Source of the DNA: Dioscorea cayenensis subsp. rotundata
Taxonomy: Eukaryota; Streptophyta; Magnoliopsida; Dioscoreales; Dioscoreaceae
DNA length: 64,000 bases
NCBI RefSeq assembly: GCF_009730915.1
Contig: NC_052475.1
Coordinates: 21,448,285 to 21,512,284, forward strand
Direction: 5' to 3'
The notes beneath the pieces were generated by a model. That model was not told the DNA's origin and made no database searches. It saw only the letters and a program-made list of their open reading frames with translations. Positions 3,918 to 52,228 of this stretch are shown here, one piece after another. Numbering within the stretch: position 1 is the stretch's first letter; each line of letters opens with the position of its first letter. The position numbers and the translations under genes are program-made.

Positions 3918-4353
3918 GTATCGAGCGGTGACAAGTGCTTATTACCGTGGAGCAGTGGGCGCATTGCTTGTCTATGATATTACTCGGCATGTCACCTTCG
4001 AAAATGCCAAGCAATGGCTGAAGGAACTGAGGGACCACACAGATCCAAATGTAGTTTTGATGCTAGTAGGGAATAAGTCAGACCTCCGCCACCTTGTTGC
4101 AGTGTCAACTGAAGATGGTAAAGCTTTTGCTGAGCAGGAGTCACTGTATTTCATTGAGACATCGGCATTAGAATCAACCAATGTAGAGAATGCATTTACT
4201 GAAGTCTTAACTCAGATCTACCAAATTGTGAGCAAGAATGCAGCTGGGACTGGTGATGATGGGGTGTCAGTCAACATCCGAGGTAAAGGAGTGAGAATCA
4301 ATGTTAGAGATGATGTTTCTGCTGTGAAGAAGGCTGGATGCTGCTCCTCTTAG
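3918..4353 (+). CDS. RabA1-type small GTPase, last exon (partial gene)
   Basis: The exon starts after TTGCAG at 3917 and supplies the last base of an Arg codon followed by [20 protein letters not shown]. That matches the usual plant RabA exon 2, which follows the WDTAGQER block on exon 1. Visible nucleotide-binding motifs are GNKSDL (G4) and ETSAL (G5). The end, [10 protein letters not shown], carries the double cysteine for geranylgeranylation, so the protein is membrane-anchored. RabA GTPases act at the trans-Golgi/recycling endosome in secretion and cell-plate growth. The tail [16 protein letters not shown] fits subclass A1 better than A2-A6. P-loop and switch I are on an exon outside the window. 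An in-frame ATG at 3868 lies in the intron and is not the start. Confidence 0.92.
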
Positions 4354-19614: not shown

Positions 19615-20811
19615 TCAATTTGAAGGAAAAGCCAAAGTGGGTCTATATGAGACTACATGATAATAGTTATATAAATAAGGATTTAATCCATCTATATCAG
19701 GGACGACCTCACACATTGTTTTGTTCATAAGATTATATAACAAGATCTTATTTCTACTGCGAAAAAATAGTTTATCATTCTTTTTTCTTACCCCTTGGAG
19801 TGTGTTTAGTGGCCAAGATTCAAACATAAAATAGATAACAGGACAAAAATTTTCTTTAATAATATTACATCCATAAGCTTCTTCAAAATCCACATGATAT
19901 AAGCTAGACCATTTTGAGAAATCTTTAGCAAGCTCTAAAATATCAAAAACCAATCGGTGACCTTCTTCGGAAACAATTAGATGTAAATGATCCTTAGATT
20001 CCCTGAAATATACAACATTAAGTTTGGTTCCATCATATTTGTTTGGCAACTGTATTTCCCGCCATTTATAATTTTTAATATTGAAAGACATTATAAATAA
20101 ATTATTACTGGCATTTCCTAATGAAATCCAATTAGCATGTCCATTCCAAAAGACTGCTGATGCATGTAGAAACCAGCCCTCATGAACAAAAGACTTTCCA
20201 CAATTTTCCCACTTACCGGTTTGGAAAGAATATAACCTAACAAGACATCTTAATCTATAATTTTCTAAGCGAACATACTCTAACATGATAACACAATTAT
20301 AAGGGATCAATACCATGCTTTTAGAATAAGATTCATGAAAGTTCAATCCAGGTTCTGGCATAGGAATTTGTTTGAAATCCATTGTGATGGGATTATGTAG
20401 ATAATAGAAGAACATGAGTGTGTTCTTGTTGGAAGATACATGGAGCTGGTATAGAAGCATGCCACCCAAATAACTAGCCTGAATTCCAAGCATCTCATAA
20501 GAAGTATGAGTGATACTCACAGTTTGTTTTAACATATTGGAGATGGGGGGATAAGGGAGTAAGTGTGTAACCGGTGCATCATCAACATTGAGTGAGCAAT
20601 AAAATGAAAAAGCTCCGACACTGAATATAATTTCGGAGACTGCATGTCGACATGTGTGAGTGGAGATGAAATATGGATCAGAGATGATGGAGTGCCACAG
20701 TTTACACACGCTTTTGAATCTTAGCACAGACCGAATTGGAAGCCAAGAGATTATTTCGAGCATGAGATCACTTGAGAACATGTCTGCAACAATGCTTTTC
20801 GTTATTGCCAT
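19615..20811 (-). CDS. F-box protein with F-box-associated domain, gene 1 (398 aa, intact)
   Basis: Single-exon open frame. Residues about 14-50 form an F-box (LMLEIISWLPIRSVLRFKSV then CKLWHSIISDPYFI), which binds SKP1 in SCF ubiquitin ligases. The rest (about 90-390) has the alternating aromatic pattern of the plant FBA type-1/3 domain, with blocks such as MDFKQIPMPEPGLNF, VFWNGHANWISL and YKWREIQLP, thought to recognise the substrate. Length near 400 residues is typical. Start chosen at the first Met of the open frame, about 15 residues before the F-box. Closest relative in the window is the gene at 34693-35910; a third, broken copy lies at 36520-44532. The substrate cannot be deduced. Confidence 0.9.
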   Translation of the reverse strand: MAITKSIVADMFSSDLMLEIISWLPIRSVLRFKSVCKLWHSIISDPYFISTHTCRHAVSEIIFSVGAFSFYCSLNVDDAPVTHLLPYPPISNMLKQTVSITHTSYEMLGIQASYLGGMLLYQLHVSSNKNTLMFFYYLHNPITMDFKQIPMPEPGLNFHESYSKSMVLIPYNCVIMLEYVRLENYRLRCLVRLYSFQTGKWENCGKSFVHEGWFLHASAVFWNGHANWISLGNASNNLFIMSFNIKNYKWREIQLPNKYDGTKLNVVYFRESKDHLHLIVSEEGHRLVFDILELAKDFSKWSSLYHVDFEEAYGCNIIKENFCPVIYFMFESWPLNTLQGVRKKNDKLFFRSRNKILLYNLMNKTMCEVVPDIDGLNPYLYNYYHVVSYRPTLAFPSN

Positions 20812-20975
20812 GGAGCACTACACATGGATGCAATTCTATATGTGCATGTGTATATATATGTATGGCCCTGTAAAAGTGGATATTGTTGATGTGTTGTTGT
20901 AAAAATTAAGGTTTTTTTTAATGTGTCCTTATCTTTATTGTTGATAATTGATATATAGATTTTATAAAAATATAG

Positions 20976-24080: not shown

Positions 24081-24289
24081 TAAATGTAAGACTCGCTACA
24101 GGATCTACGAAAAAAAATGAGCTATACAATTACAAAACTAAGGCCGGATCTAAATTCCTCAACTAAACTTAAGGCAAGAAGAGGGTCACACTAACAACCA
24201 AATCTACTAAACCGAAAATACTATATATATAAAGTTAAAAACATGCTTACACACTACAAGAAAAAAATTCCAAATCAGCACGATAAAAT

Positions 24290-25250
24290 TGGTACAGAAA
24301 CAAAAATCGTGACAATTTGTTACTAATATTTGATACTGGAACTAAGAAATAAGTATCAAATATATGAATTTTTAAAAAAATTTTTAATTCGATGCCAAAA
24401 TACTGCTACTAAAATATATAAAACTTAATAATTTTTACATGACGAGTCTTAGAATGCAGAGTACTAAACATATTTTTTTAAAAACATAATTATATTATTA
24501 CGGGTGCTAAAATACTGGTGCTAAAACCGAAATATAATAATATATTAATATCGTGCTAAATGTCGTGCTAAAAATACTAAATATAATAATATATTGATCT
24601 AGGTGTCAAATACTATACAAAAAAATATAAATATAATATTATATTACTTCCGTGCTAAATACTGCGTACTAACTATATAAATATAATAATTTACTAAGGC
24701 AGTCTACAACATCTAGTGCTAAATAATATAAAATATAATAATATATTAATACTGATGCCAAAATATGATACTAAAAAAATATAAATATAATAATATATTA
24801 ACACCGTACCAAATACCGTGACAATTATATAAATATAGCAAATTATTAACATCGTGCCAAATACAGTGTCAAAAAAATATAAATATAATAATATATTAAT
24901 ACCGTGCCAAATATCATGCCAAAAATACAAATATATTTATATATTAATATGGTGCCAAATACAGTGCCAAAGTATAAATATAATAATATATTAATACCAT
25001 GTCATTGTGCCAAATACAGTGAAAAAAATATAAATATAATAATATATTAATACCATGCCAAATACGGTGCTAAAAATATAAATATAATAATATATTAACA
25101 CCGTACCAAATCCCGTACCAAAAATATAAATATAGTAAATTATTAATACCGGGCTAAATACAATGCCAAAAGTACTAAATTGATTAATGTCATATCAAAT
25201 ACAGTGTAAAAAATACAAATACAATAATTTTTTAATACTTGTATTATTTT
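24290..25250. repeat. CACTA left subterminal repeat array
   Basis: About twenty degenerate units of GTGCCAAATACNGTGCC plus AAATATAAATATAATAATAT TAA spacers. Units occur in one main orientation. The inverse-oriented partner array is at 31980-32340. Confidence 0.85.
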
Positions 25251-25460
25251 ATATAATTATTATATATATAATATATTATATAATTATAATTCCATCGGCC
25301 TGATGTCTCGGATGGAATTATAATTAATACCGGCTTGTCTTATCCTCTCCCTCTCCGACAAGCCGCCTCCATCTCTGCAACCGACGACCGCCAGGCCTCC
25401 TTCCTCATCCTCTCCTCCTCCACTTAATCCGATCGGCGACCACTATTGCACCTCCGCCTG

Positions 25461-25595
25461 ATGTCTCGGATGTCCGACAATCATCACCATTGTTGCCATT
25501 TCGAGGATTTCAGGTATGATCCTCTTTATGCCCTCAACTTCGACGACGCCTACCTCGCTGGAGATCTATCTAAGTATTGCAATTTCTTTACCTAA
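25461..25595 (+). pseudogene. Captured fragment 1: unidentified short ORF
   Basis: ATG frame of 44 codons in a GC-richer patch directly after the subterminal array. It includes HHHCCHFEDFRYDPLYALNF followed by DD. The HHCC and RYDPLxYALNFDD look is reminiscent of small uncharacterised plant proteins, but I cannot name it. A CT/CCTCC-rich leader upstream (25320-25450) resembles a 5' UTR, so this may be the transcript start of the captured cargo. A repeated phrase CCTGATGTCTCGGATG occurs at 25299 and 25457. Confidence 0.4.
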
Positions 25596-25805
25596 TTTTC
25601 TTCTGAGTTTTTCCTAATTTTTGTGGTGTTTTGGTTCTAGGTCTGCTAACGAATGACTATAATTTTGATTGCAAGTTGACAATCTTGGCTTAGAGTGCTT
25701 CCGAAGTGGTATTGTGATCTATAAACCTTTTGATTGATTTATTTCTGAATTTTTGTTGGTTTGGTGATTAATTAACTTTTTCTAGTGTTAGGGTTCATTG
25801 TCTAG

Positions 25806-26397
25806 GTATCAAATACTGCTTTCAAAGGAGAAGATGATGGTGGCGGAGAAGCTCTCTTCCTTACAAGGTTTTTTTTTATATAATTTTATTTTGGATTTTC
25901 AATTTTCTGATTTCTGAATTATTGTTGTCGTCTTGTTCTTGTGTCAGTTATTTTCTTATGTTTTTTCTGAAATAAGTTTGAATTGGAACAGATGAAGAAT
26001 ATGGTATTGGATCCAATAGGTTGAGTAAGATCAGTCGAGCATGCCTTGAACTTGCCTGGTTTGTTGACTTCCATGTAATGATGTTTTGAATTTAGGTTTT
26101 CATGCAGGCTGTCTCAGCAATTTTTTGGTAAATCCTCATATTAATGACCATGTGAATATTCTTATCTCCTTGTGAATTTTAAGAGGTAGTCAAGTGGCTA
26201 AAAACCATCTTGAATTTGTAGTTCAAACAATCCAAGCTATATATGGCTAGCATGTATTTTCTTTGAACTGCATACCTTATTCCTATCTTTATCTTTGTGA
26301 TATCACTTCTTGTAACAGGAGGAACAGAAGGTTTGTTTGAAAATAAAACAACAGAAATCACAGACGATGTTGTTTCAGTTTATTGCAATCAAGGTAT
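25806..26397 (+). pseudogene. Captured fragment 2: unidentified exon-like blocks
   Basis: Three blocks look spliced. 25806-25868 follows TCTAG and precedes GTTTTT. About 25992-26020 includes GATGAAGAATATGGTATTGG. 26315-26390 follows TGTAACAG and precedes GTATGC. Frames such as KEKMMVAEKLSSLQ and GGTEGLFENKTTEITDDVV are open, but I recognise no family. The source gene is unknown. Confidence 0.3.
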
Positions 26398-27114
26398 GCA
26401 TAAATCTTTTCTTCAAACACTACATAGGAATTACTCTTTATGCTTCATATTCAGTGGATGGTTCTTGCCATTGTGGTGCACAGTCCAGTGGACTCTTTTT
26501 GCTTTGTTTGTAATGTCCGATGGCAAAATAAGTTTTGAGTATCGGGGTCCATCAGCATGCTAGCTGAAAACTCATGATATAATTTTCAGTTCATTACCTG
26601 TTGGATAGGAAAAACTGATGGTGATCCTAATTTCTAATATATTCCTACCCCTTCGTGGAGGATGTGTATATTCATCCATAATTGGAATTCAAATACATTC
26701 GTCTATCTTACCAATTTGTCTTAGTCAAGCCATGGTGATGCAAAGGAAATAAATGCACATATAATGTGTTCCATTGAAAACCTCCATCTGTGTATACAAG
26801 TGTATACCTTATTGTAGTTTCTGAAACTATTCATATCAATATCATCTCAGAGTTTCTTAATTTTATGTACTTGTGCATTGGTTGAATCCATTAAGAAGTG
26901 ACCTTTAAGCGCCCTCTCATTTATTCATAGTTTCTTTGATGATCTTTCCCTCTAGTAGATAAGTTATTCTTCCATTCCATTAAAAGATTTAATGGCATGC
27001 CTTTGATAAGACCGCTGATGGCAACCAACTAAATTCATGCACTTGTTAGGTAGTTTTTGAGACATTTGATATGGACATTAATATAATTATTGTTACTGTT
27101 ATTGATATTGCCAG

Positions 27115-28296
27115 GAATCTCATGGATTTATGAAGACAAACAAATGGCGGGATACGATCGGAGCTTTTATCAACATTGAAGCATATGGAAGTGGTGGTCC
27201 TGGTATGAAGCAATTGATTGAAGTGTATGCTCTGTTGTTTTTCTTTCATTATGAGACTGAAAAAATGGCAGGTCAAGCAAATGCGGATTAAGCAAATAGT
27301 TAGTTTGTGATTAAATATTTATATTTGGGTCATGTAGTCCAAGGAAAAGCCCATATGACCAGTAGCTTAGCAATCAGATAGTTTCCAAGTTTCAAGAGTG
27401 AACTAATTCCTTTTTTTAATAGCATTCCGTAAACTTTATAACATCTAATAGAATTTCATCTATTATTCCATAAAATTTATAACATAAAATGGATTTTCAT
27501 CAATTATTTTATTGAAACTTTCCAAGTACTTTGTTAAATTTAACTAGCAGGCAAATCAGCATTATCTTAATCTTCTACTAGGGCTTCATTTGGAAACTTC
27601 CATTTCCGGTTGCTAGCTACTATATTATAATTTCTTTAGAAAATAACTACCAAATCTAATCTGCATGTTTTTAATCTTCTACTCAGAGCTTATATATGTT
27701 CTGTCTTAAATGAGCATGTATGGACTTGCATTTTTTATGTGATTTTTTAGGCTCTAATTTGATGTTTTTTTATTGTTTTATATTGCATTTTTACCATTTT
27801 AATCGTGCCATGCCATTTTGGTTTCTGGAGCACTCTTATGGAGATATCATTGTACATGATCTGAATGACAAGAATCCAGCAATAAAAGATGCTACAGAAC
27901 ATCCGCTATTAGTTCCACATTCACAGTTTCTACCTATGTGAATTCTATGCATAGCTTTCCATAATCTTCCCTATGAAATGAGTTTTTTGTTAGGCTTCAC
28001 TCTAGCATTTGGAAACCTGCCATTTGATTCTTCCTTTCTCACCTTGAGCTGCTTAGTATCTTTGCATAGTGTTATTGATGTTCCAGATGGTAGTCCTTTG
28101 TTGTACTTTCTATAGAATCAACTGATTGGTCCTCTGTTATCCATATAAGCTATTGGATATTCTTATGTGAGCTAATTATTTTATATGGTGATTTTACAGG
28201 ATTGCTATTCCATGTTATTGGGGTTCTTCTTGCAGTTATTGTTCCAGTTGTATTTGCTGTCCTAAGATTATTTTTCTCAAATTATTCCATGAGCTG
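27115..28296 (+). pseudogene. Captured fragment 3: ERMP1-like M28 metallopeptidase exons
   Basis: Exon 27115-27202 (after TGCCAG, before GGTATG) encodes ESHGFMKTNKWRDTIGAFIN then IEAYGSGG, the conserved block of the plant ERMP1-like M28 zinc exopeptidase that follows the catalytic glutamates. Exon 28201-28296 (after TTACAG, before GTAAAT) encodes LLFHVIGVLLAVIVPVVFAV and LRLFFSNYSMSW, a transmembrane segment of the same family. Intact family members are ER membrane proteases of more than 800 residues. Here metal-binding exons are missing, so no protease can be made. An open frame near 27812-27940 (FWFLEHSYGDIIVHDLND) lies between them and is unassigned. Confidence 0.75.
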
Positions 28297-28547
28297 GTAA
28301 ATTTTTTCATGAAAGCTAGCTGTCTGCAGTACCATAAATAAAATGAATTGAAAGGAAAAAATACAGAACTTGATGTTTATTTTAGCTTGACAAATCAACT
28401 ACGAAGTGTTGCATGCTTCTTAAAATTCATTTCTGGGGTTGTTTTGTGCTTATAAAAATGTTGGCCTTTCAATATTTAATTTCCAATGCTTACTCCTTGT
28501 TTTTATGAATTTGAAACTTTGCTTATGATTACAATGGATGTTTTTTT

Positions 28548-28682
28548 GGTAGAACATAAAGTAGAAGAAGCACTTTTGGCATTTGACGCAGAAGAAAAAA
28601 GATGTGCAGAGTTGAATGACTCTGGAGAAAATTCATCTGATGAAATTTCAGCTTATAAGGCAGACTTCTTAAAAAGAAAGGG
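28548..28682 (+). pseudogene. Captured fragment 4: unidentified charged exon
   Basis: Open block containing KVEEALLAFDAEEKRCAELN and a following stretch to ADFLKRK, ending before GGTATGC at about 28680. Strongly acidic/helical. Source not recognised. Confidence 0.35.
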
Positions 28683-28979
28683 TATGCTTGTGGATCAGCT
28701 TTTGTGGTTTGAATCTGTGCTTGTCTTAAGCTGAGCATTCATTGTCTCAATATTAGATTGCCCCATTAGCTACCTACTTCAGTTCTTGTTCAATATTATG
28801 TTAATTAAATTTTTCTGGGCATTGAAACCAAAATCTAGCTTAGTTTTTTCTGTTTTTGACAATCTTGAAGCCTTAGTTATTCATATTTAAAATAGGATGC
28901 CAATGGAAGAAAATACGCTAGATGCTAGACATATTTAAAATATATGCAACATTTTTTAATGTGTTCTTGTAAATTGCAG

Positions 28980-30055
28980 CTGAATGATGTGTTGAGTTTG
29001 GGCCGGCACTGCCTTTGGAAGCGGATGTCTGTAACTTGGAGCGGGTCTGTCTTTTTGTCATCTTGTTGTTTGTTTTTGCAATTGTTTGGTCAAATCCATA
29101 CACTGCTTTGCTTGTGTTTTGTTTAGTTTTTGTTTGTGTGAACAGTGCGAAGAAGGGGGATAGTGTTCTTGATTTGTGTTGTGGGAGCGGTGACTTGACC
29201 TTCTTCTTATCCCATTATGTTGGTCTCCATGGACAGGTCTCTTCTACTATTTTTTTTTAAATCATTTCTGTTAGTATTTTTAAGTCACAGAGAGATAGAG
29301 TATTTTGTTTTATCAATCTCTATTACAACAGTCTGAAACATAAAACAAAGTGCAAATTATGAGTTATACCCGTAACATAGATATCCTTTTCACTTTTGAT
29401 CTAGCGTTGGGAGTTGATAGCCTTCCATCAAACCAAAATTAATGGGTTAAACATCTTCTAGAACAGCAGCATCTCAACCACATGTTCTGCTTTCCATGAC
29501 ATTATAGGTTGCTCTTGAATCCTTTTTCTTAAACATTAATGCCCATGGCCTTCACTTTTATAGGAATGAATGCTACTTTTAATTGTGATCACGTAGTAAT
29601 CAGTACTCAACAAATCTTAGTTTTGGTACATTTCTAATCCATGAACTGCATGTTGATACTCATTTTAATAAAATTATTTTACTTCTCTCTATTTTTAGTC
29701 TGTTTGTTAGTTCTTGTGTAAAGATAACATGATGTTGGAATATTCCTCACAATGCACAGGTAAGAGGTCTTGATTTTTCGAGTGATCAATTGTCCATTGC
29801 TTCCTCCCTCAGGAACTAAATTGGAAGGCTTGCTACGACAACATTAAGTGAGCACCAATTTGACAACAAAAGCATAATAATTCACCTAACACATCTGATA
29901 TATGCTGACTTTTTGAATGCCATCTTTACATTTGGTTTACTTGTAGTTATAACTTATAACTAACTTATATGAGGCAAGCTCCTTGTTTTACATAAGTACA
30001 TTACTGGACTAGACTTTGTCGATTCCATTCCAAATGGATCGAAGGTGGTGCGTTT
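28980..30055 (+). pseudogene. menG: Captured fragment 5: MenG (demethylphylloquinone methyltransferase) exons
   Basis: 28980-29044 encodes LNDVLSLGRHCLWKRMSVTW. 29146-29236 encodes AKKGDSVLDLCCGSGDLTFF, the SAM-binding motif I of the UbiE/MenG family. 29760-29847 encodes VRGLDFSSDQLSIAS. About 30031-30055 encodes WIEGGAFDLPFP. Splice sites around the first three are good and the frame is continuous until 29810. There one shift separates SSLR from ELNWKACYDNIK, creating a stop. The WIEGG block has lost its acceptor. The chloroplast enzyme makes phylloquinone for photosystem I. Motifs II-III and the C-terminal half are absent, so this is a dead partial copy. Confidence 0.85.
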
Positions 30056-30099
30056 GATCTACCTTTTCCAAGAAGCTCTTTTTATTTTTTTATTTGTAG

Positions 30100-30575
30100 A
30101 ATCCGCCATCTGTTCCAACACTTGCTACAGTTAAATTTTCCAGCTGGTTAAGACGATCAAGCTTTTTGATTGACTGGCACAATTTTGGGCATACTTTGCT
30201 GGGTTTGTCCCATGGGAGAAGTCATATAATTGTGAAAATCTATCATTGGTAATATTTGATTTTTCTCATTGAAGCTTGTTTCATAGAGACATCACCTTTG
30301 GTCTTATAAATTCTTGTCATTATTTACTGGTTTTCTGTTTTCTAGGTTTGAGAAATTTTTTGGGAGGATGGCCGATGGATCCTTATGTGTTACACAGGCA
30401 ATGCAACATGAGCTTGCTCAAAAATGGGGAATCAAGTGAGTTAGATATTTGCAGGCATTTTCACCAGAAAAATATAATTTCTTATGCAGTCATTTTGTCA
30501 TGTTTCAGAGCCACTGTCCTCTATGACCAGCCTCCTGAATTTTTCCATCCTGTGTCAATTGCGGAGAAACATGAG
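30100..30575 (+). pseudogene. ALG1: Captured fragment 6: ALG1-like mannosyltransferase exons, frame intact
   Basis: Three exons, 30100-30248, 30346-30435 and 30509-30575, join in frame without a stop. They encode NPPSVPTLATVKFSSWLRRS, FLIDWHNFGHTLLGLSHGR, then FEKFFGRMADGSLCVTQAMQ and ATVLYDQPPEFFHPVSIAEK. This is the N-terminal half of the glycosyltransferase family 33 enzyme ALG1, which adds the first mannose to the lipid-linked N-glycan precursor at the ER. All introns have GT-AG ends. The catalytic C-terminal domain is missing. After the last exon (GAG then GTTTAC) no further ALG1 exon is seen. Confidence 0.85.
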
Positions 30576-30837
30576 GTTTACTTGATTCTGAGTTTGCTTG
30601 CAAGTTGCCTAATCTCTAGTTCAGATGTATGATCTTCAGAAATATCATAGTTGTTTTGTAGGTTAGGGAACAACATCTGTCATCTAAACAACATACGTGA
30701 TTGTGTTTCTTTTGGTAATTTTTATTGGTAAAAGTTTTTCATTAATGGTTGTAAAGTCAGCAGCTTTACTGTCAATTTGTGAGTTGATCTTTTCGAGTTA
30801 TAACCTTATTACTTTCATCTATCTCCAACATGGTAGG

Positions 30838-30955
30838 AGTTGAAGGCCTGAAAGGTTGTACCTCAGTCCATGTAATGGACAGATTAAGCCAAAGCATGTT
30901 TACTGGCCAGGTCGGCAATGACTTTTTCTTGAAGCCAAATAGGCCTGTGCTTATG
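30838..30955 (+). pseudogene. Captured fragment 7: unidentified exon-like block
   Basis: After GGTAG at about 30836 an open stretch reads VEGLKGCTSVHVMDRLSQSM and FTGQVGNDFFLKPN. It has protein-like composition and is bounded by a possible acceptor. I do not recognise the source. Confidence 0.3.
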
Positions 30956-31175
30956 GTTAGTAGTACCAGTTGATGAGGTTTATTTTCTAGAGTATGAAGA
31001 GGATTTCTTTACTCTCAATTTTTCTGAAACTTAAGCTTGAGTTACTTTTTCAATTGCAATCCTCAACTTATTTAAATGTTGTTATGGAAGGAACATGTAT
31101 TTATTTGTTTATAGAAAATAATATATTGCTCGTTCTCATCAATTTCTACACCATGCACAGATTCCCCCAAATCAG

Positions 31176-31621
31176 GTGCATGCCGACTTAAGGAAGTGCT
31201 TCCAAGCAAATGTGAGTGCTGAAGTTGCTGAATCAATCAGGATAATGTATGGAGGTAATTTTCCTCTATATTTGGCACCTTCTGTTGCATTTTTATTTTT
31301 TAATATGATTTTATGGGCATTAGTTCATTAATGTTGTGTTCATGGTTATTTCAGGTTTTGTTAGCAGTGCAAACTGCAAAGAACTAGCAGCAAAGCCTGA
31401 TGTAAATGGATTCCTCGTCAGTGGACCTTCTTTGAAGGTACTACTTTTCCTTTCATCTAATTTACATCAAAAACCATTGGAGAGGATCTGGTTTTCAACA
31501 CTCTGCTTGTCAAGATTAGTTTGTTTAACTTTCACTTGTCTCATTTTTGTTCTCTTTGTTTTCCTCGCAGCCGGAGTTCATCGACATCATCAAATCCGCG
31601 ACTGTGAAATCATCTACCTAG
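31176..31621 (+). pseudogene. TPI: Captured fragment 8: triosephosphate isomerase 3' exons with native stop
   Basis: Exons 31176-31254, 31355-31437 and 31571-31621 join in frame: VHADLRKCFQANVSAEVAES, IRIMYGGFVSSANCKELAAK, PDVNGFLVSGPSLK, PEFIDIIKSATVKSST and stop. This is the C-terminal part of cytosolic-type TPI. The phosphate-binding loop sequence normally YGGSV is YGGFV here, and VGGASLK is VSGPSLK; both are changes at positions that bind the substrate phosphate. Catalytic Lys, His and Glu exons are absent. The fragment ends the cargo and could give chimeric transcripts their stop and 3' UTR. Confidence 0.88.
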
Positions 31622-31979
31622 AGTGCCACTCTTAATGTTCATTATATGAATTTCTGGGGAAGAGACCTTGTTTTCTGTGATCAAAATAATCTAATTAAAA
31701 TTTTTGTTATGCAAATGTTATCGGCCTGGATCTTGTTTGTTCCCTAGCAACAAGGCTGCAATACTGAATTTTAATGTTGCATGTGGAATGGAGTTTTAAT
31801 GTTGTTTTGATACAAGTGTTTGTATAGTTATACTACATGATTTCCAATGTATATATAGGGCATCTATATGTATTGGTAATTCAATAAGATGATTTTTGTT
31901 TGGTAATTCAAAATTTTTAACTAGTGCAATTAAAAAAAATTAAATAAAATTAATTTCATATAAATTATTTTTTCCTCAG

Positions 31980-32340
31980 ATTAAACAAAAGCGTGCCGAA
32001 AGCTGTAACAAAAAAAATTTATTAAAAACTGTGCCAAATACTGTGAAAAAAATATATTATATAAAATCGTGCTAAAAATCGTGCCAAATACTGAACCAAT
32101 AAAACAGTGCCAAAATAGTGTCAAATGTAGAATCAAAGTCTGTGCCAAACATCAATGGCAATGATTGGCACAATAGTGAAAAACCGTGTCGAAAACAGTG
32201 ACAAAGCTCGGCATGGTATTAAAAAAATAGTGACAAAATGTATTTGTGACGGGTGCTATAGGCACGGTTAATTTTTGGTGTCAAATACAGTGCTATAATC
32301 AGTTTGGCACGGGTATTAACTCCATTTCCGTGCCAATTTT
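31980..32340. repeat. CACTA right subterminal repeat array
   Basis: Repeated GTGCCAAATAC/GTGCTAAAAATCGTGCC units, then inverted GGCACGG motifs up to the right terminus. Confidence 0.82.
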
Positions 32341-32374
32341 ACCGTGCCGATTTATGATTTTTCTTGTAGTGACA

Positions 32375-34692: not shown

Positions 34693-35910
34693 CTAAGGAA
34701 AAGTTAAAGTGGGCTTATATATGAATAGATCATAAAAGCGAAATAAACGATGAGTTATTCTGGGGACGTTAGAGACAGTTAATCCGGGGGCGTTAGAGAC
34801 AATATTCTCATGCAGTGCTTCGTTCATAAGATTATATGACAAGAACTTGTCCCAACTATTAAAAAATAGTTTATCATCCTCTCTTCTCTTCCCTCGAAAC
34901 ATGTTTAGTGACCAGAAGTAATCATCATATAGAATTGTTTCCCAATTTTCTTCAATAATACCATCATATTCAAAACCCAAATTATAGAAATTTAGATGAT
35001 ATAATGTAGACCATTTTGAAAAATCTTCAGCAAGCTCTAAAATATCACAAACCAAACTCGGATAATCTTCAGACACAATAACATGTAAATGATCTCGAGA
35101 CTCCCCAAAATATAAGGGATAAAGTTGGCTTCTTCCATCTCTATCTGACACCTGTATTTCCCGCCATTTATAACTTTTAATGTTGAAAGACATTATAACT
35201 AAATTATCACTATCAGTTAACACTGAAATCCAATTAGCAGATCCATTCCAAAAGACTCCCGGTTTATCTAAAAATCGACCCTGATGAATGAAAGGCTTTC
35301 CACAATTTTCCCACTTACCAATTTTGAAAGAATATAAGCTAACATGACACCTTGTTGTATAATCTTCCAGGGAAACATAATTTAGCATGAGAACACAGTT
35401 ATCAGAAATCAATAGCATGCTTTGAGGGTAAGGTAGAGGAAAGTTCAATCCAGGTTCTGGCATATGAATTTGTTTGAAATCCATAGTAATGAAATTATAT
35501 AGATAATAGAAACTACTCCTGTCTGAAAGTACATTGAGTCGGTATAGCAGCAGACCATCCCAATAACTAACGTTAATTGCACATATCTCCGAGGGAGCAC
35601 GAGTGATACTCATGGTTTGTTCTAACATATTGGAGAAATTGGGATCACGGAGTGGGTATGTAATCAGTTCATCATCTACGTTGAGTGAGGAATAACTGGA
35701 ATAAGCTCCGACAGTAAATATAATTTCTGAGACGGCATGTTGTTGATCACGTCGGCATGTGTGAGTGAAGATGAAATACGGATCGGAGATGACTGAGTGC
35801 CATAGTTTACACACGCTTTTGAATCTTAGCACTGATCGAATTGGAAGCCAAGAAATTACTTCCAGCATGAGATCAGCATTGGTTGCAACCATATTTTTCA
35901 TTGTTGCCAT
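34693..35910 (-). CDS. F-box protein with F-box-associated domain, gene 2 (405 aa, intact)
   Basis: Intact paralogue of the gene at 19615-20811, with roughly 60 % of positions alike by eye. The F-box at residues about 13-49 (LMLEVISWLPIRSVLRFKSV, CKLWHSVISDPYFIFTHT) is nearly identical. The FBA-like part keeps MDFKQIHMPEPGLNF, VFWNGSANWISV, YKWREIQV and FGESRDHLHVIVSED. The C-terminal parts are most divergent, as expected if substrate contacts evolve fast. Start at MATMKNMVATNADLMLE; a second Met at residue 4 is possible. Likely an SCF-complex substrate receptor; target unknown. Confidence 0.9.
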   Translation of the reverse strand: MATMKNMVATNADLMLEVISWLPIRSVLRFKSVCKLWHSVISDPYFIFTHTCRRDQQHAVSEIIFTVGAYSSYSSLNVDDELITYPLRDPNFSNMLEQTMSITRAPSEICAINVSYWDGLLLYRLNVLSDRSSFYYLYNFITMDFKQIHMPEPGLNFPLPYPQSMLLISDNCVLMLNYVSLEDYTTRCHVSLYSFKIGKWENCGKPFIHQGRFLDKPGVFWNGSANWISVLTDSDNLVIMSFNIKSYKWREIQVSDRDGRSQLYPLYFGESRDHLHVIVSEDYPSLVCDILELAEDFSKWSTLYHLNFYNLGFEYDGIIEENWETILYDDYFWSLNMFRGKRREDDKLFFNSWDKFLSYNLMNEALHENIVSNAPGLTVSNVPRITHRLFRFYDLFIYKPTLTFP

Positions 35911-36519
35911 ATGGAGAGCTACTACGTACGTACACTTGGATGCAATTCAGTGCATGCCTTGTATATATAATTGTAAATAACTGAGATTGGAAAAAATAAA
36001 ATGAGATTAGAAAAACCACGTTTGTAATTATTTTAAACTGAGATTGGAAAAAATAAAATGAGATTAGAAAAAAAAAAAACCACATTTGTAATTTATATGG
36101 GGATACATAATATTTCAAATGCACCTTCTTTAATGATTTTTCACAACAATCTCATCTTACTGATTTATTAAATAATTATGTCAATAAATAATGAATCCCA
36201 AATACTAAATAATTTCAAGAGAAACTTCCTCACATGACATTACAAAAAGTAGATAATTTACAACCAAAACGAATGATATATTTTAAAGATAAATATATAT
36301 GGTTTTTAAAAAAAAAAAATTCAGTAAGAATTCAATTATCAAAATACATAAGCAAATAAAACTATAAAAGCAAAAACGTAGAAACAATATAGTTTTTTAT
36401 AAAGGTCTATTTAATTACAATTATTTACTTTTGAAAATTTTAATATTTAAATAAAAAAATATATATAGAATTAAATGCAAACAAACTCAAATGATAAATA
36501 ATTAAAGTTCTTTATTATT
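35911..36519. other. Upstream region of F-box gene 2 and duplicated AT-rich flank
   Basis: Near the ATG the ACTTGGATGCAATTCAG phrase is shared with the other F-box promoters. An internal direct repeat ACTGAGATTGGAAAAAATAA with AATGAGATTAGAAAAA occurs at 35980 and 36038. Segment 36240-36470 is repeated at about 49610-49830. Confidence 0.55.
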
Positions 36520-37849: not shown

Positions 37850-40800
37850 TGGCAAATATTGCAAAAATAGAATTTGAGGCCCTTTCAAATCTCGGGGAGC
37901 AATTATATATCCTGGAGCCTCGATATCAAGCTCCATCTGAAAGCAAGAAACCTAAGTAAAACTATTGAGGCTAATAACAATGAGCCTAGTGATAACAAGG
38001 CGAAGGCCTTAATATTTATAAGGCATCATATTGATGATGGCCTGAAGAATGAATACTTGACCATTGAGGATCCACGGGGAATTGTGGTTATCCCACGAAA
38101 GAGAGATTTGAACATCTCGGAATGGTCTACTTGCCCAAAAGCACGCAATGATTGGTCAAGCCTCGGGGTTTCAAGATTTTAAAAGCGTCAGAGAATATAA
38201 TTCCGAGCTATTTAAAAATTGTTTCAGATTGCCTCTCGTGGAGAAAGCGATGTGATGAAGGAATGATGCTCGAGAAAAACATTTACAACATTTCACGCAT
38301 CGAAATGTTATATTACAACAACAATATAGAGAAAAAGAATTTTTACAAAAATTCTCTGAATTAATTTCTTGTCTCCTTGTGGGCGGAGCAAAACAATGAA
38401 TTGTTGATGCGAGAATCATCAATCTCGACCATCCGGATCGGCACTGCTTGCCGAGAAATTAATTTTTGGGCAAAGAAGATGGGCGTGGTCGCGGTGCTAG
38501 TTTTAAAAAAACCGCGGTGGGACGAGGAAATTATCGTGGTCGAGGGACTACGCGGTCGTGGTGGGGGCGAAATAATATCGGACCACGCGATAATAGAATT
38601 GATGTACATTAGCGAAGCAACAAAAGCCACAAGATGGGGTTAGAGACAAAGAAAGATACATGCTATCGTTGTGGCTCGGAAGGTCGTTGGTCCGAAATTT
38701 GCGGGACCCCAAAACATTTTGTCCATCTTTACCAAGAATCACTTAAAAACAAGAAAGGTAAAGATATTGAGACAAATTTTGCTGACAACCCCATAGTTGA
38801 TCCAATTGAGGATAATTCCATAAATAATTTAAATGTAACTGAAAATACATATTTAGATATGTCAGATTTCCTTATAGACTAGTTTGTAATATGTCTTTAT
38901 GTTTTTATTAAATTATGTTTTTCTTCTGTTTTGTTAGAATATGGCTGATGATGAATGCATTATTGATTGCGGGACAACGCATACTATTTTGACAAGAAAA
39001 ATATATTTTATATCCTTATCAATGAGAAAGGCATGTATAGCCACAATAGCAGGGTCATCAGACCTGGTTGAAGGTTCTGGAGAAGCAGCATTGATGTTGC
39101 CAAATGGGACATCCTTGCAGATGAAAAATGCTCTCTATTCCCCTAAGTCTAGGAGGAACCTTTTAAGCTTTAAAGATATACGTCATAATGGATATCATTT
39201 AGAGACGGTTGATAAGGAAGGAAAAGAATATCTTTATATTACACAAGTCATTTCATGCCAAAAACGTGTACTTGAAAGCTTTCCCTGTATATCCTCAGGA
39301 TTATATTTTACACGTATTAAAGTGATGGAATCACATACGGTATTAACCCGGAAGGTTAATGACCCAGAGATATTTAAAATATGGCATGAAAGACTTGGAC
39401 ATCCGGGTGCTATTATGTTGCGCCGGATTATTACTAGTTCTCATGGACACCCACTAAAGGATTATAAAATCCTAACACATAATGAATATGCATATTCAGC
39501 ATGTTCAATGGGAAAGCTAATAACCAGACCTTCTATAACAAAGGTGACTGATGAATCTCCTAAATTTTTAGAAAGAATATAAGGAGACATTTGTGGACCA
39601 ATATATCCATCATGTGGACCATTTAGGTATTTTATAGTTTTAATCGATGCATCGACTAGATGGTCCCATGTTTCACTTCTGTCTACAAGGAATGTAGCAT
39701 TTGCAAGGTTATTGGCACAAATTATCGGGGCTTAAAAGCACAATTTCCAGATTATCCCATAAAGACAATTCGTCTTGATAATCTTTGCTGAATTTTCATC
39801 AAAAATCATTTTATGATTATTGTATGGCGGTTGGAATACATGTTGAGCATCCAGTAGCTCATATGCATACCCAAAATGGGTTAGCGGAGTCATTAATTAA
39901 AAGACTCAGATTATTGCTCAGTCCAATGTTATTAAGGACGAAAGCGCCTACAAGTGCGTGGGGTCATGCTATTTTGCATGCTGCAGCTTTAATACGGATC
40001 CGACCCACTGCATGTAATTCATATTCACCACACCAACTTGTTATGGGTAAAGAGCTCGATATTTCATATATAAGAATATTTGGTTGTGCGAGTATATGTG
40101 CCAATACCACCACCAAATCGTACAAAAAAATGGGTCCATAACGCAGACTTGGTATATATGTTGGTTATGATTCCCCTTCGATTATACGATATTTAGAACC
40201 ATTAACGGGGGATGTATTTCTTTGCAAGATTTGCGATTGTCATTTTGATGAATGCATCTTCCCCTGCATTAGGGGAGAAATGATTACTCAAAAATGAGCC
40301 AAAAGAAATTGATTGGAATGCATCACGATTACATACATATGATCCTCGTACCAATGAATGTGAACTTGAAGTTCAAAGGATCATTAAATTGCAAAAATAT
40401 TGTAAATGAAATACCGATGCATTCATCGATACTAAAATGGTAACCAAATCATATATACCAGGTGCTAATGCTCCTGCAAGAATTGAGATTCCTAAGAATC
40501 CATTGAAAAGAAAATCAAATAGAAAAATAAAACCACGACAAAAAAAGCGTGGAAGACCAATTGGTGCCAAAGATTCGACTCCTAGAAAAAGGAAGCAGAA
40601 AAGATAAAGATAAGGATCTCCCATGTGAAAAAGGGAGAGGAAATTATAAAAACCCTCGAGAACAAGTTAATGAAGAATCAATGGGGGATGATATTTACGA
40701 AAAAATGTTGAAAAATTCAATTTGCTATGTAGATGATGGTCAAAGATTGAATCGGCATGAGACCGAAAATAAATGATATATTTATCTACAATGTGGCTAC

Positions 40801-43899: not shown

Positions 43900-44761
43900 T
43901 ATAATAGTTTATCATCTCTCTCATGCAGTTCCTCGGACTATGCTTAGTGGTCAAGAGAAAGATGCACGATACGGAAAAATACATTTTTTTTTAACAAAAT
44001 AAAATCTTCTTTAATATCTATATGATATAAAATAGACCATTCCGAGAAATCTCTGGCAAGCTCTAGAATATCCAAAGACAAACAACAATGATCTTCCGAC
44101 ACAATAACATGGAAATGATCTCTAGACTCTCCGAAAAATAGGGGATAAAGTGTTTTTTTTTTTTTTGCCAATTTTATTTTTCGGTATCTATAACTTTTAA
44201 GGTTGAAAGACACTATCACTAAATGATGGTTATGCTTGGAGGAATATGAAATCCAATTAGCCGAACCATTCCAAAAAAACACCCGTCTCCATCCAAAACC
44301 AACCTGCATGAATAAAAGATTTCCCACAATTCTTCCACTCACCCGTTTCGGAAGAATACAACTTAACCAAACACTCTAATTTATTATCTACCAGGGTAAC
44401 AAACTCTAACATGAGTGCACAATTATTTGGAATCAATAGCATGCTTTGATGAGAATGGTACTGTTGACGTTTATAATCAAAGCTCAACTCAGGTTTTGGA
44501 GTAGGAATTTGTTTGAAATCCATTGTGATAACTATAACCACTAAAGCCTTAAAAATCAACAAATAACTAATTTAAATATTTAAATCTAAGATATCATAGT
44601 CAAATTAAAACAAACATTATTATCTCAACACCCTCCCTTAAACTTATGTTTATCTCATAAGTTTAAATATTTTAAATTATCTCCCTTGCATGAATCTAGA
44701 AACACCAATTAATGCCTTGAGCCTGTGAAAAATAGCTATTTTGAGAGGTTTTGTAAATAAA

Positions 44762-47700
44762 TCAGCAATTTGATCTTTGCTTTCTGCGGTAGATGAGATC
44801 AATAATTTTCTTCTTTTTAAGATCACGCAAGAAATGATATCTTACGTCAATATGTTTGCTTCTTCCATGAAATACTGAATTCTTAGATAGTTTGATAATT
44901 GAACTATTGTCACAATACATTGAAGTCAAACCTTCCTGCTTTAATTGAAGTTCTTCAAGAATATTTCTTAACCACATTGCTTGGAAGGCACATGTTGTTG
45001 TTGCTACAAATTCAGCCTCAGTTGTTGAAAGAGTAACAATATGTTGCTTCTCTAATGACCATGAGATAACTCCAAAACCTATCATAAATACATAACCAGA
45101 TGTGCTTTTCCAATCATGTAAATCTCCTGCATAATCACTATCTGTAAATCCAATCAAATCTGACATCTCTCCTTTCTTGTACAATATTCCATAATCTATT
45201 GTTCCTTATAAGTATCGCAAAATTTGTTTTTCGGCCATGAGATGCACCTTTTTTAGATTTTTCATGAGACTTACAATAAACATAATGTCGGGCCTTGTTG
45301 CAGTTAAATACATCAAACTTCCAACAATTTGCTCGTAAAAAGTGTTGTCAACCTTGTTTCCTTCTAAATTTTTAACAAATTTCAAACTCATCTTAATAGG
45401 AGTACGAATCGGATTACAATATGAAAATAAAGCAAAATAAGTAGGATCTTCAGCTTGATTGAAATCTGTTACTTCATAATCTGCCATCTAAGCTGGCCTT
45501 TTTCGAATACGAGTAATCGGCGATGTAGTTGATTTCTCTGCTGTTGTTTGTGAAATTTCAGTAGTAGTTGAGGCTTCATTAGTTGAAATTTCTTCATGTT
45601 GGACTTGTTCTCCTTCTTCTTCGGCTTAATCACTAATTATAATTGTAGTAGGCTACTGCTCACTCCAATTCCAAGTGCTTTCCTCATAAAAAATAACATC
45701 CCTACTCACCACAATTTTCTTTGTCAATGGATCATACAATTTAAAAGCTTTGGATATTTCACTAATCCCTAGAAAAACACACTTTTGCCCCTTATCATTA
45801 AGTTTCTTTCTTTTCTCATCTGGAATATGTGCATATGCAATGCAACCAAAAATTCTGAAGTGATCTACTATTGGTCATTCCACTCCATGCTTCTTCTGGT
45901 GTTTTATTTTGAACAGTAAAAGTAGGACTTCTATTCAAGATATGAATGCTCCAATTCACTGCTTCTGGCCAAAATTCTTTGGAATTCTGCCCTTTGTTAA
46001 CAAGGTTTGCACCATATTAAGGATGGTTCGATTTTTTTTTTCTGATAGTACACCATTCTATTGTGGGGAATAGGAAGCTGTGAGCTCTCTTCGAATGCCA
46101 TGATCATTACAAAACTTTCAAAGTCTTTTGAGCAGTACTCTCCTCCGCGATCAGTGCGAATTTTTTTAATAGGTTTCCCAGTTTCACTTACAACATATGC
46201 CTTGAAGCTTTTAAATGTACTAAAAGCTTCTGATTTCTTTTGTAAAAAATAAACCCAAGTTTTTGAGAATAATCATCAGTGAAAGTAATAAAATATCTTT
46301 TATCTCCATTAGAAGTAGAATTTATTGCTCCACAAATATCAGAGTGAACAAGTTCTAGAACATCTTTTACTCTCTAAGACTTTCCTTGAGAGAAAGGAGT
46401 ACAATGTTGTTTGCCAACAACACACTCTTCACAAACTTGGGAGGGAATAGTAATTTTAGGAAGCCCTATCATTATATCTTTTTATTGGAATGACTTCAAT
46501 CCGCCAAAGCTCAAGTGACCATACCGATAATGCCATAGCCATGAGGAGTTTTTTGTTTTAGCCATCAAACAAGGTTGAGCACATTCAATCTTCATAGGAA
46601 ACAACCTATTTGTACTCATGGGCACAATTGCAATTGCACCTTTACAATGATCATATATTTCACAAGTACCCTTTTGAATAGTAATTGTATATCCCTTCTC
46701 TTACAACTGACCAGCACTCAACAAGTTACTTTTCAAGTCAGGAACATAAAAAAAACGTTAAAAATTTTTCTATTAAACCATTCTTGGTTTTTATATTAAT
46801 TTCACCCTTTCCCATCACATTCACCGTAGAGCAATCTCCAAAGTTAACAGTAGAGTGAAAATCTTAATTTAAGTAAGAAAAGAAGGACTTACTTCCACAT
46901 ATATGGTTGCTACAACCAGTGTCTACAAACCAAATATCTGACTTGTGAGATTCCTGACTATCTTGAATTGCCATTAGCAAAGTCCACTTCTTTATTTTCT
47001 GCAAAATTTGACTTTTCTCCTTTGTCTTTGTCATTAGGTAGCTTGGTGTAACATTTAGAATTGTAATGACCAAATCGATGACATCTAAAGCACTCAATCT
47101 TAGATTTATCAAATTGTTGACCTCGTCCTCTTCCTTTACTTTGTAGATAACCATCATCAGTATTTCTGTAGCCTCTATTTGCTCTTCCTCTTCCTCTACT
47201 TCCACCTCGACCTTGTAATATTGAGAAGTTGTTGGTTGTAAAGGCCTTCAAAGCTTGCTCCTCAGCAGTAAAAATTACGGTTCATCTTCAGTTCTTAACT
47301 AATAAAGACCTTTGAAGTTCATCAATGGAGAGTGCATCTATGTCCTTTGATTTTTCAATTGAGCAGACTATATAGTCAAATTTTGCTGTCAAAGATCGCA
47401 ATATCTTCTCAACAAATAGCAACATCGTCCATCTTCTCCCCATAAAAACGCATATTATTGGCTAACTCCATGGTTCTTGCAAAATAGTTATTAACAGATT
47501 CTCCATCCTTCATCTGTAGATTTTCAAAATCCCCTCTCAAAGCTTGAAGTTGTGCACGCTTCACTCTTGATGAGCCTTGATATTTTCTCTTCATTGAATC
47601 CCATATATCCTTGGAGGTTTCTTTGCAAAGAATCGTCTCTAAGATAGATCGATTAATGGCCTAAAATAAGTAGTTCTTCACCTTCAAGTCTTTTAACTTT

Positions 47701-50201: not shown

Positions 50202-52228
50202 TTGGACCCAAGGACTGTTAGTGGTTATTTCATTGGTTATGCCGAAAAGTCCAAGGGTTATAGGTTTTATTGTCCATCATATAGCACTCGAATTGTGGAA
50301 TCAAGAAATGCCAAGTTTCTTGAGAATGACTTGATTAGTGGGAGTGATCAACTTCTAGACTTTGGTCTTCAAGAAGATCATGAAGAAACTCTGGACACTA
50401 ATTAAAGATTGATTGTTTCACATGACAACCATCAAGATTTGGGAGACATTGAAATGACAATCATGGAAGAACCACATCCTGCTGATCCAGTTGATCAAGT
50501 CCCACAACATCAATTTGAAGTTATTGAGCAACAACTTCATCAAGAAGATAATGATGTGGCATTAAGAAGGTCGACTAGAATTAAGAAATCAGCAATATCT
50601 AGTGATTATGTTGTGTATTTACAAGAATCTGAATATGATTTTAGAGCCGCTGATGACCCTGAAACATTTTCACAAGCTATTAGTTGTAGTAATTCTAAGT
50701 TGTGGTATGATGCTATAAAGGATGAGATGGAATCCATGGCACATAATGGTGTTTGGGATCTAGTCAAGTTGCCTGAAGGGGCGAAAGCCATTGGGTGTAA
50801 GTGGATCTACAAGACAAAGAAAGACTCGCTAGGCAACATTGAGCGTTACAAGGCTAGATTGGTTGCTAAAGGATTTACTCAGAAACATGGCATCGACTAT
50901 AATGAGACTTTTTCTCCAGTTTTGAAAAAAAAGACTCGTTTCGTATTATAATGGCATTAGTTGCTCATTTTGACTTGGAATTACATCAGATGGATGTGAA
51001 AACTGCTTTCCTTAATGGAGATCTAGATGAAGAGGTGTTTATGAAACAACCTGAAGGATTCTTCTCTAGTAAAGGTGAAAGCTTGGTTTGCAAGCTTAAG
51101 AAATCTATATACGGACTGAAACAAGCATCCCGACAGTGGTATTTGAAGTTCCATGATGTTGTCTCATCATTCGGTTTTGTTGAGAACATTAAGGATCAAT
51201 GCATATACTATAAAGACAGTAGGAGTAGGTTTTGCTTTTTAGTCCTATATGTTGATGATATTTTGCTTGCAACCAATGATAAGGGTATGTTGCATGAGAT
51301 GAAACGATTTCTCTCTAAGAATTTTGATATGAAAGATATGGGCGAGGCATCTTATGTCATTGGCATTAAGATACATAGAGACAGATCCCATGGTGTTTTG
51401 GGTTTGTCTCAGGAAGCCTATGTTAATAAAATTCTTGAGAGATTCCGGATGGAAAATTGTTCACCTAATGTTGCACCTATTGTGAGAGGTGACAAGTTTA
51501 ATTTGGACCAGTGTCCTAAAAATAACTTGGAAAAGTAACAGATGGAAAACATCCCGTATTCTTCAGCTGTTGGAAGTCTTATGTATGCTCAGGTCTGTAC
51601 GAGACCAGACATTGCATATGCTGTGGGGATGTTGGGAAGATGTCAAAGTAATCCAGGGATTTACCACTGGAAAGCTGCAAAGAAAGTAATGAGGTATCTT
51701 CAGGGTACAAAGGAGTACAAGCTTACATACAGAAGATCAGATAACTTGGAGGTCATTGGATACTCGGATTCAGATTATGCTGGCTGTCTTGACTCTCGGA
51801 GATCGACATCCGGTTACATTTTCATGTTGTCCGGTGGTGCTATCTCATGGAGGAGTGCAAAACAGACTTTGGTTGCTACTTCCACTATGGAAGCCGAGTT
51901 TGTTTCATGTTTTGAGGCGAATTCCCAGGGTATTTGGTTGAGGAGTTTCATATCAGGGCTTAGAATCATTGATTCTATATCTAAGCCATTAAGGATGTAT
52001 TGTGATAATTCTGCTGCTGTGTTTTTCTCTAAGAATAATAAGAGTGGTAGTCGAAGTAAACACATCGACATCAAGTATTTGGCACTAAAGGAACGCGTGA
52101 ATGCCGGTGAAGTAACCATTCAACATATTAGCACAGAGTTGATGATTGCGGATCCTTTGACAAAAGAAATCGCGCCGAAGTTGTTTAGAGATCATGTTGA
52201 ACATATGGGACTTGGTTCTTCTCTATGA
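50202..52228 (+). pseudogene. Copia pol (RT-RNase H) of element 3, nearly intact
   Basis: The RT starts near 50690 ([20 protein letters not shown]) and includes [54 protein letters not shown] and the catalytic LYVDDILLA (about 51244). Next come GSLMYAQVCTRPDIAYAVG and RNase H with GYSDSDYAGCLDSRRSTSGY, ending HMGLGSSL at 52228. Defects are few: a stop at 50403 after the integrase tail, one lost base in an A run near 50930 that breaks SPVLKKK from [13 protein letters not shown], and a stop at 51536-51538. The good preservation suggests a rather recent insertion. Confidence 0.9.

Follow-up and report, generated by a model that had tools for sequence, protein, structure and literature searches.

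A CACTA transposon of yam that carries fragments of seven host genes

Tgm-Express1, a CACTA element of soybean found in the wp allele of F3H, holds five host gene fragments that are spliced into chimeric transcripts (PMC1947982). Pack-CACTA and other Pack-TYPE elements have been annotated in rice and maize; those of maize often combine several loci, and the width of an element correlates with the number of loci in it (PMC8903248). Here we describe a CACTA element of 8,120 bp from the white yam Dioscorea cayenensis subsp. rotundata. It occupies positions 24252-32371 of a stretch of 64,000 nucleotides, which we call the window (contig NC_052475.1, here C5, positions 21,448,285 to 21,512,284), and carries fragments of seven host genes in one orientation. 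We hold with high confidence that this is a complete, non-autonomous Pack-type CACTA transposon, which captured unlinked host DNA over time and was shortened by deletion.

The comparisons that follow are drawn from the portions of the sources cited. Like Tgm-Express1, whose splice sites work as cassette exons, the yam element has CACTA ends around an interior made up of exon and intron pieces from host genes that are unrelated to one another. Unlike Tgm-Express1, it has seven donors rather than five, comes from another species and carries another set of genes, and its host genes and sister elements can be placed in the same genome. With the Pack-CACTA and Pack-TYPE elements it shares the state of a non-autonomous class II element holding host coding DNA, but it differs from what that study (PMC8903248) describes in that a two-ended chassis, consisting of block A and a TPI tail, recurs with variable cargo. 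Captured gene fragments also link it to the CACTA elements of Chenopodium (PMC8978399), and the capture and shuffling of host gene fragments to the Pack-MULEs and gene-carrying Helitrons (PMC13317346), although these belong to other superfamilies and the ends of the yam element are of the CACTA type. We found no description of the yam element in the open-licence literature on Dioscorea CACTA elements and transposons or on D. rotundata gene fragments. The first-pass annotation of the window had judged the combination of captured genes to look new, which may hold for the gene set, whereas the kind of element is already in print (PMC1947982, PMC8903248). What is unusual here is a readable history, in that copies of the source genes and related mosaics are found in the same genome.

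Boundaries and family of the element

The element begins with CACTA at both ends, is flanked by a 3-bp target-site duplication and has arrays of subterminal motifs at both ends, as is characteristic of CACTA (En/Spm) transposons. Its terminal structure is as follows.

24249..24251, no strand: left copy of the target-site duplication, ACA, 3 bp, with related empty sites
24252..24265, + strand: left terminal inverted repeat, CACTACAAGAAAAA, 14 bp, a perfect match to the right end
24266..25240, + strand: left subterminal array, AT-rich units of ~48 bp with GTGCCAAATAC-like motifs, all in + sense
25281..25326, no strand: 16-bp inverted repeat at the start of the captured DNA, folding as a hairpin (z -4.8)
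31981..32357, + strand: right subterminal region with GTGCCAAATAC-like motifs, its array shorter than the left one
32358..32371, - strand: right terminal inverted repeat, CACTACAAGAAAAA, 14 bp, perfect
32372..32374, no strand: right copy of the target-site duplication, ACA, 3 bp, with related empty sites

At up to one mismatch CACTACAAGAAAA matches three times in the window, and two of these matches are the element ends (shuffle mean 0.14). At up to two mismatches the left 989 bp contain 11 matches to GTGCCAAATAC and the right 396 bp four, plus one in reverse, where shuffled sequence averages 0.29 and 0.21, respectively; only two lie in the 6.7-kb interior, a number within shuffle expectation. 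All searches of the genome were made in the 584-Mb assembly of 2,249 contigs, labelled C1, C2 and so on. When both flanks of the element were joined, with one ACA removed, and run against the genome, 16 matches were obtained: the two flanks themselves, five that covered the left flank only, and nine that crossed the join. The last group, on six contigs (C3, C6, C10, C11, C15, C868), has 73-85% identity and comprises eight matches of at least 86 bp and one of 41 bp that adjoins another on C15; of the left flank they cover only 10 to 34 bases. The nine matches show the element to lie within a repeat, other copies of which do not have it at this point, and its borders agree with this. The initial proposal of one 8.1 kb CACTA element is thus borne out by perfect terminal inverted repeats (TIRs), ACA duplication, subterminal arrays and related empty sites alike.

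A Pfam scan of ten interior reading frames yielded no transposase, and the longest stop-free run within the element is 119 aa. The element is therefore non-autonomous, which does not exclude it from the CACTA superfamily. Elsewhere in the genome there are at least 150 matches to Transposase_21 (150 of 1,603 candidates scored). On its loop side the hairpin at 25281-25326 holds a copy of CCTGATGTCTCGGATG, which is repeated at 25457, and this left-junction inverted repeat around a duplicated sequence looks like templated filler from repair.

The exact 14-mer of the TIR occurs 684 times in the genome, against 43 for a reversed control, and is common to other CACTA families, as seven of eight loci inspected by eye have different subterminal sequences. 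The 40-bp family end is more specific, with 58 matches at up to three mismatches against none for its control. The family thus has at least 58 ends and several sister elements, so that the proposed search for other copies with the same termini proved productive.

Captured fragments, their host genes and the order of capture

Donors were sought by comparing positions 25240-31980 with the yam's own genome (40 of 226 candidate regions scored), supplemented by protein searches and fetched loci. At least 56 matches were obtained in the genome comparison. Seven donor genes could be named, with all fragments in + sense in the element and host loci on six contigs, C6 occurring twice.

25381..25587, + strand: block A, fragment of an apparently single-exon host gene (FRYDPLYALNFDD); C9:28.94 and 29.31 Mb, ~71% nucleotide identity
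26005..26257, no strand: segment without a host match in the own-genome search
26257..27048, + strand: PFP (diphosphate--fructose-6-phosphate 1-phosphotransferase) fragment, exon 26319-26393; host C6:11.933 Mb
27038..28424, + strand: ERMP1 (M28 peptidase) fragments, exons 27115-27202 and 28200-28296; host C10:19.885-19.892 Mb (-)
28424..28533, no strand: 110-bp segment for which no host source was found, present too in several sister elements
28531..28939, + strand: EXO84C (exocyst) exon part and downstream intron piece; host C6:18.980-18.986 Mb (-)
28937..30085, + strand: MenG (UbiE-type methyltransferase) fragment, exons 28980-29044, 29146-29236 and 29760-29847; host C17:0.498-0.502 Mb (+)
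30078..31111, + strand: ALG1/TURAN fragment, five exons (30100-30955); host C13:2.834-2.838 Mb (-), 95.7% identity
31127..31980, + strand: 3' part of TPI, exons 31161-31254, 31355-31437 and 31571-31621 with stop, and 3' sequence; host C18:22.635-22.6395 Mb

Host coding DNA therefore lies between the TIRs, as in Pack-CACTA elements, and all seven source genes are placed elsewhere, those of TPI and block A at 71-77% nucleotide identity only. The PFP fragment matches its host at 97.1% and 94.4% with a single internal deletion of ~54 bp, and the joined exons of the host gene match NCBIfam TIGR02477 (E 1.2e-64). The two ERMP1 pieces (93.9% and 95.2%) lack the intervening exons, and the two EXO84C pieces (97.2% and 92.5%) lack the ~1.3 kb between them in the host locus, where matches span residues 1-773. 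MenG is at 86.1% with gaps counted, and its third exon (29760-29847) has a 1-nt frameshift relative to the host gene. The ALG1 host locus has exons for residues 43-432 in line, and the TPI exons match their C18 host gene at 76-77% of nucleotides. The host gene of block A, present in two copies on C9, contains the motif FRYDPLDYALNFDD and matched no Pfam family.

The first-pass annotation had named four donors, an ERMP1-like peptidase, MenG, ALG1 and TPI, and rightly so, as a host copy with further exons was found for each; its count of at least four was an undercount. It had also put all fragments in the same direction, which is true of all seven, and had left several exon-like blocks unnamed. 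Three of these belong to PFP (26257-27048), EXO84C (28531-28939) and the single-exon gene (25381-25587). Block F (27.8-27.94 kb) is not regarded as an exon, for it sits in a part of the ERMP1 DNA that none of the matched exons covers. Blocks A-D and F, translated in several frames and used as protein queries, gave 26 candidates and no match; block D was named PFP through the genome DNA, and block A was traced to the reading frame of its host. The intact genes are separate loci, and among the loci and matches examined the fragments occur together only in related elements, not as one contiguous gene order without CACTA ends.

AG acceptors are present at all 14 exons and GT donors at 13, the exception being the last TPI exon; this list omits the EXO84C exon, which is truncated on its 5' side. 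The introns of PFP, ERMP1, EXO84C, MenG and ALG1 are present and can be aligned to the host genes (distances 0.03-0.09). Since the introns of five donors were kept, capture was from DNA, as the initial annotation had maintained.

The gap-free substitution distances are 0.027 and 0.046 for PFP, 0.042 and 0.040 for ERMP1, 0.042 for ALG1, 0.075 for the EXO84C intron piece and 0.078 for MenG, with TPI and block A far more diverged. The exon lists used in this comparison were slightly off for PFP, ERMP1 exon 1, EXO84C and MenG, and exact for ALG1. Among the scored matches PFP is found in the window element and the host gene only, MenG in these two places and the C10 copy, pieces of ERMP1, EXO84C and ALG1 in a number of sister elements, and the tail of TPI in 14 further places. 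TPI and block A look like the oldest captures. PFP, which is in no other element among the scored matches, is probably the latest.

Sister elements lie at C9:16899866-16911509 and C9:17.07 Mb and on C2, C10, C773 and C5. The first of these is ~11.6 kb long, with a TTG/TTG duplication and one end reading CATTACAAG; its ALG1 piece is longer than that of the window element, it has ERMP1 pieces in addition, its second EXO84C piece is a different one, and it lacks MenG. In the C5 copy, at 8.257 Mb, the EXO84C stretch is longer too. Such longer pieces fit a course in which long stretches were captured and then lost parts to internal deletion, and the overlapping subsets of fragments fit stepwise growth with trimming by deletion. 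The second C9 copy has a flank in common with the first and is counted as a regional duplication rather than a transposition. The C2 and C10 copies, checked for a 3-bp duplication, have no match between their two sides, and the EXO84C/MenG and MenG/ALG1 junctions are found again in the C10 copy. The EXO84C intron piece (28689-28939) has further places on C37, C19 (twice), C1323, C11 and C5 (8.256 Mb), and on C37 and C1323 a left family end lies within ~1.3 kb of it.

Block A is common to many members of the family. Its linkage was counted over the best 35 of 46 matches, among them the window and both host copies on C9, with the 11 weakest dropped, 16 TPI places taken by hand and three ends added to the 58. 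Among these 35, a same-strand TPI tail lies downstream in eight and a family right end within 20 kb in 15, where each count takes in the window itself. Many members have in common a left part that holds block A and a right part that holds the TPI 3' end, with varying donor pieces in between. Four elements (C12:21.03, C1624, C7:6.45 and C1472) have a spacing of 7.33-7.40 kb from block A to the right end and no TPI match, which suggests a separately amplified Pack element; the C12 copy, read in part, has ERMP1 pieces. It is conceivable, if unlikely, that the family serves as an exon-shuffling chassis, with a left side (array, hairpin, block A) and a right side (TPI terminal exons, stop, 3' sequence) that would both stay constant while unrelated exon cassettes were exchanged between them, and with chimeric transcripts that would be made and translated, a MenG-ALG1-TPI fusion being one product.

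The annotated TURAN-like gene

A protein search with the joined MenG, ALG1 and TPI exons found an NCBI protein of D. cayenensis subsp. rotundata named 'UDP-glycosyltransferase TURAN-like'. The contig of that record and C5 both have 32,752,956 bases, and the record is almost certainly the locus in the window.

29025..31621, + strand: chimeric gene model, NCBI 'UDP-glycosyltransferase TURAN-like', 275 aa, ten exons, MenG (2)-ALG1 (5)-TPI (3)

A single parse of ten exons and nine GT-AG introns reproduces the 275-aa sequence exactly, and the model leaves out the frameshifted MenG exon 3. A longer frame, running without interruption from block A as far as the stop of TPI, is open in only three of 64 exon choices and was not taken as meaningful.

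In the ALG1 part, K relative to the host gene is 0.038 in exons and 0.046 outside them. Thirteen of the changed exon bases lie in nonsynonymous codons and five in synonymous ones, and 11 of the 12 amino-acid differences were placed by eye on the branch of the element; a relative-rate comparison with D. sansibarensis (13 vs 8 changes) was not significant. To judge from the sequence, the ALG1 part evolves about neutrally, with exons that bear no sign of preserved protein function, and with MenG exon 3 frameshifted there is no indication of constraint on the protein in these two parts. C>T changes at CHG sites number 22/286 towards the element and 7/252 towards the host genes (p 0.013, uncorrected), the pattern expected of a silenced transposon. 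Because the ALG1 exons have no sign of preserved function, the TURAN-like gene model is most likely the annotation of a Pack-CACTA transposon, with a small chance that the locus is a working chimera.

Capture route and competing explanations

We propose that CACTA transposase from other loci in the genome would mobilise the element in trans. The element and its relatives took up genomic stretches from seven host genes on six contigs. Divergence and the distribution of each piece among the sister elements point to captures at different times, and comparison with host genes and sister elements suggests that the captured stretches were shortened through internal deletions. The surviving splice sites allow gene finders, and possibly the cell, to join exons of different donors, the TURAN-like protein being such a join. 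Capture itself may have proceeded through gap repair with template switching or through the fusion of elements that lay side by side.

Fusion is the published capture model for Pack-CACTA (PMC8903248), in which a gene is mobilised together with the two family members on either side of it, all as a single unit; a 2026 review, which also treats this model, states that an alternative, undiscovered mechanism may exist for the capture of unlinked genes (PMC13317346). Repeated fusion is a possible origin of the yam element, though we lean somewhat away from it: family members are numerous in the genome, and a C10 copy has an extra family-type end (12167357) between its block A copy (12163336) and its right end (12170605), yet several sequential fusions beside unlinked genes would be required. 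The window copy has no clear internal TIR remnants, as the best interior match has three mismatches to the 14-mer and ten to the 30-bp ends, and the single motif-like matches at 25806 and at 31268 are no more than shuffled sequence would yield; fusion therefore has no direct support in this copy. Gap repair has none either, since exact microhomology was found at only two of six donor junctions (5 and 2 bp), in a test that divergence weakens. The C10 locus (C10:12163336-12170605) is possibly a fused pair of elements. At C1:14977109-14977162 a family-type 40-bp end on the - strand abuts an exact 14-mer end on the + strand, possibly two touching insertions, which is the arrangement that the fusion model needs.

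Besides the missing TIR remnants and sparse microhomology, other observations weigh against our reading of the locus as a non-autonomous Pack-type transposon. No autonomous partner was found: ten transposase loci had zero or one GTGCCAAA each, in a weak test that took in only ~1.5 kb on each side. The closest host genes of TPI and block A are distant (71-77%), and the true donor could be another, lost copy. Decay at CG sites is much the same in element and host genes (11/79 vs 9/76, p 0.81), and the MenG-ALG1-TPI frame is still open, which is not required of a decayed copy. The open frame is also what speaks for a new gene, that is, a fusion protein of MenG, ALG1 and TPI assembled by the transposon and now under selection. 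Such a gene would account for an exact NCBI model with nine canonical introns and one frame across three donors, and for TPI tail exons without in-frame stops in the aligned codons of 11 of 12 other elements, five of the 12 lacking 94-95 of 228 exon bases. The pooled pN/pS over all pairs of TPI copies is 0.50, a value that is hard to read because the exons differ more than the introns (introns 0.039). We nevertheless regard a working gene as improbable, in view of ALG1 exons that diverge from the host nearly as fast as introns with nonsynonymous changes dominant, of amino-acid differences concentrated on the element branch, of a frameshifted MenG exon that the model skips, of enzymes kept only as fragments, and of CHG decay that indicates silencing. 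It is more improbable still that two different elements, or an assembly join, mimic one long element. The end type is common, sister elements have mixed contents, and the C2 and C10 copies lack a matching 3-bp duplication, but in the window the ACA duplication matches and related empty sites cross the join, so that the two ends mark one insertion; moreover, the first C9 sister element combines the two chassis parts with TIR ends and a TTG duplication of its own, and two internal junctions recur in the C10 copy. Least credible of all is entry of the exons through spliced RNA, in favour of which nothing was found and which intron retention refutes for PFP, ERMP1, EXO84C, MenG and ALG1.

Beyond the element, the window contains F-box genes on both sides of it, at 19615-20817 (-) and 34693-35946 (-), each with F-box Pfam matches; a frame at 43944-44375 (-) resembles their C-terminal part by eye and has no Pfam match. 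Copia-type retrotransposon pieces lie at 38938-39582 (+), 50406-52228 (+) and 44762-45205 (-), with Pfam matches to gag_pre-integrs and Pol_BBD at 38938 and to RVT_2 at 50906, while 44762-45205 and 51539-52228 are RNase H-like by eye without a Pfam match. An exon of a Ras/Rab family GTPase (PF00071, 4.2e-34) is found at 3841-4353 (+).

How class II elements collect fragments of unlinked genes is unsettled, and here one genome holds the host copies of seven donors, the mosaic and its sister elements. As the sisters contain longer or different pieces, the order of capture and the later deletions can be worked out. It matters as well, for yam gene sets and for annotation by similarity generally, that a protein listed by NCBI as a glycosyltransferase most likely represents a transposon mosaic.

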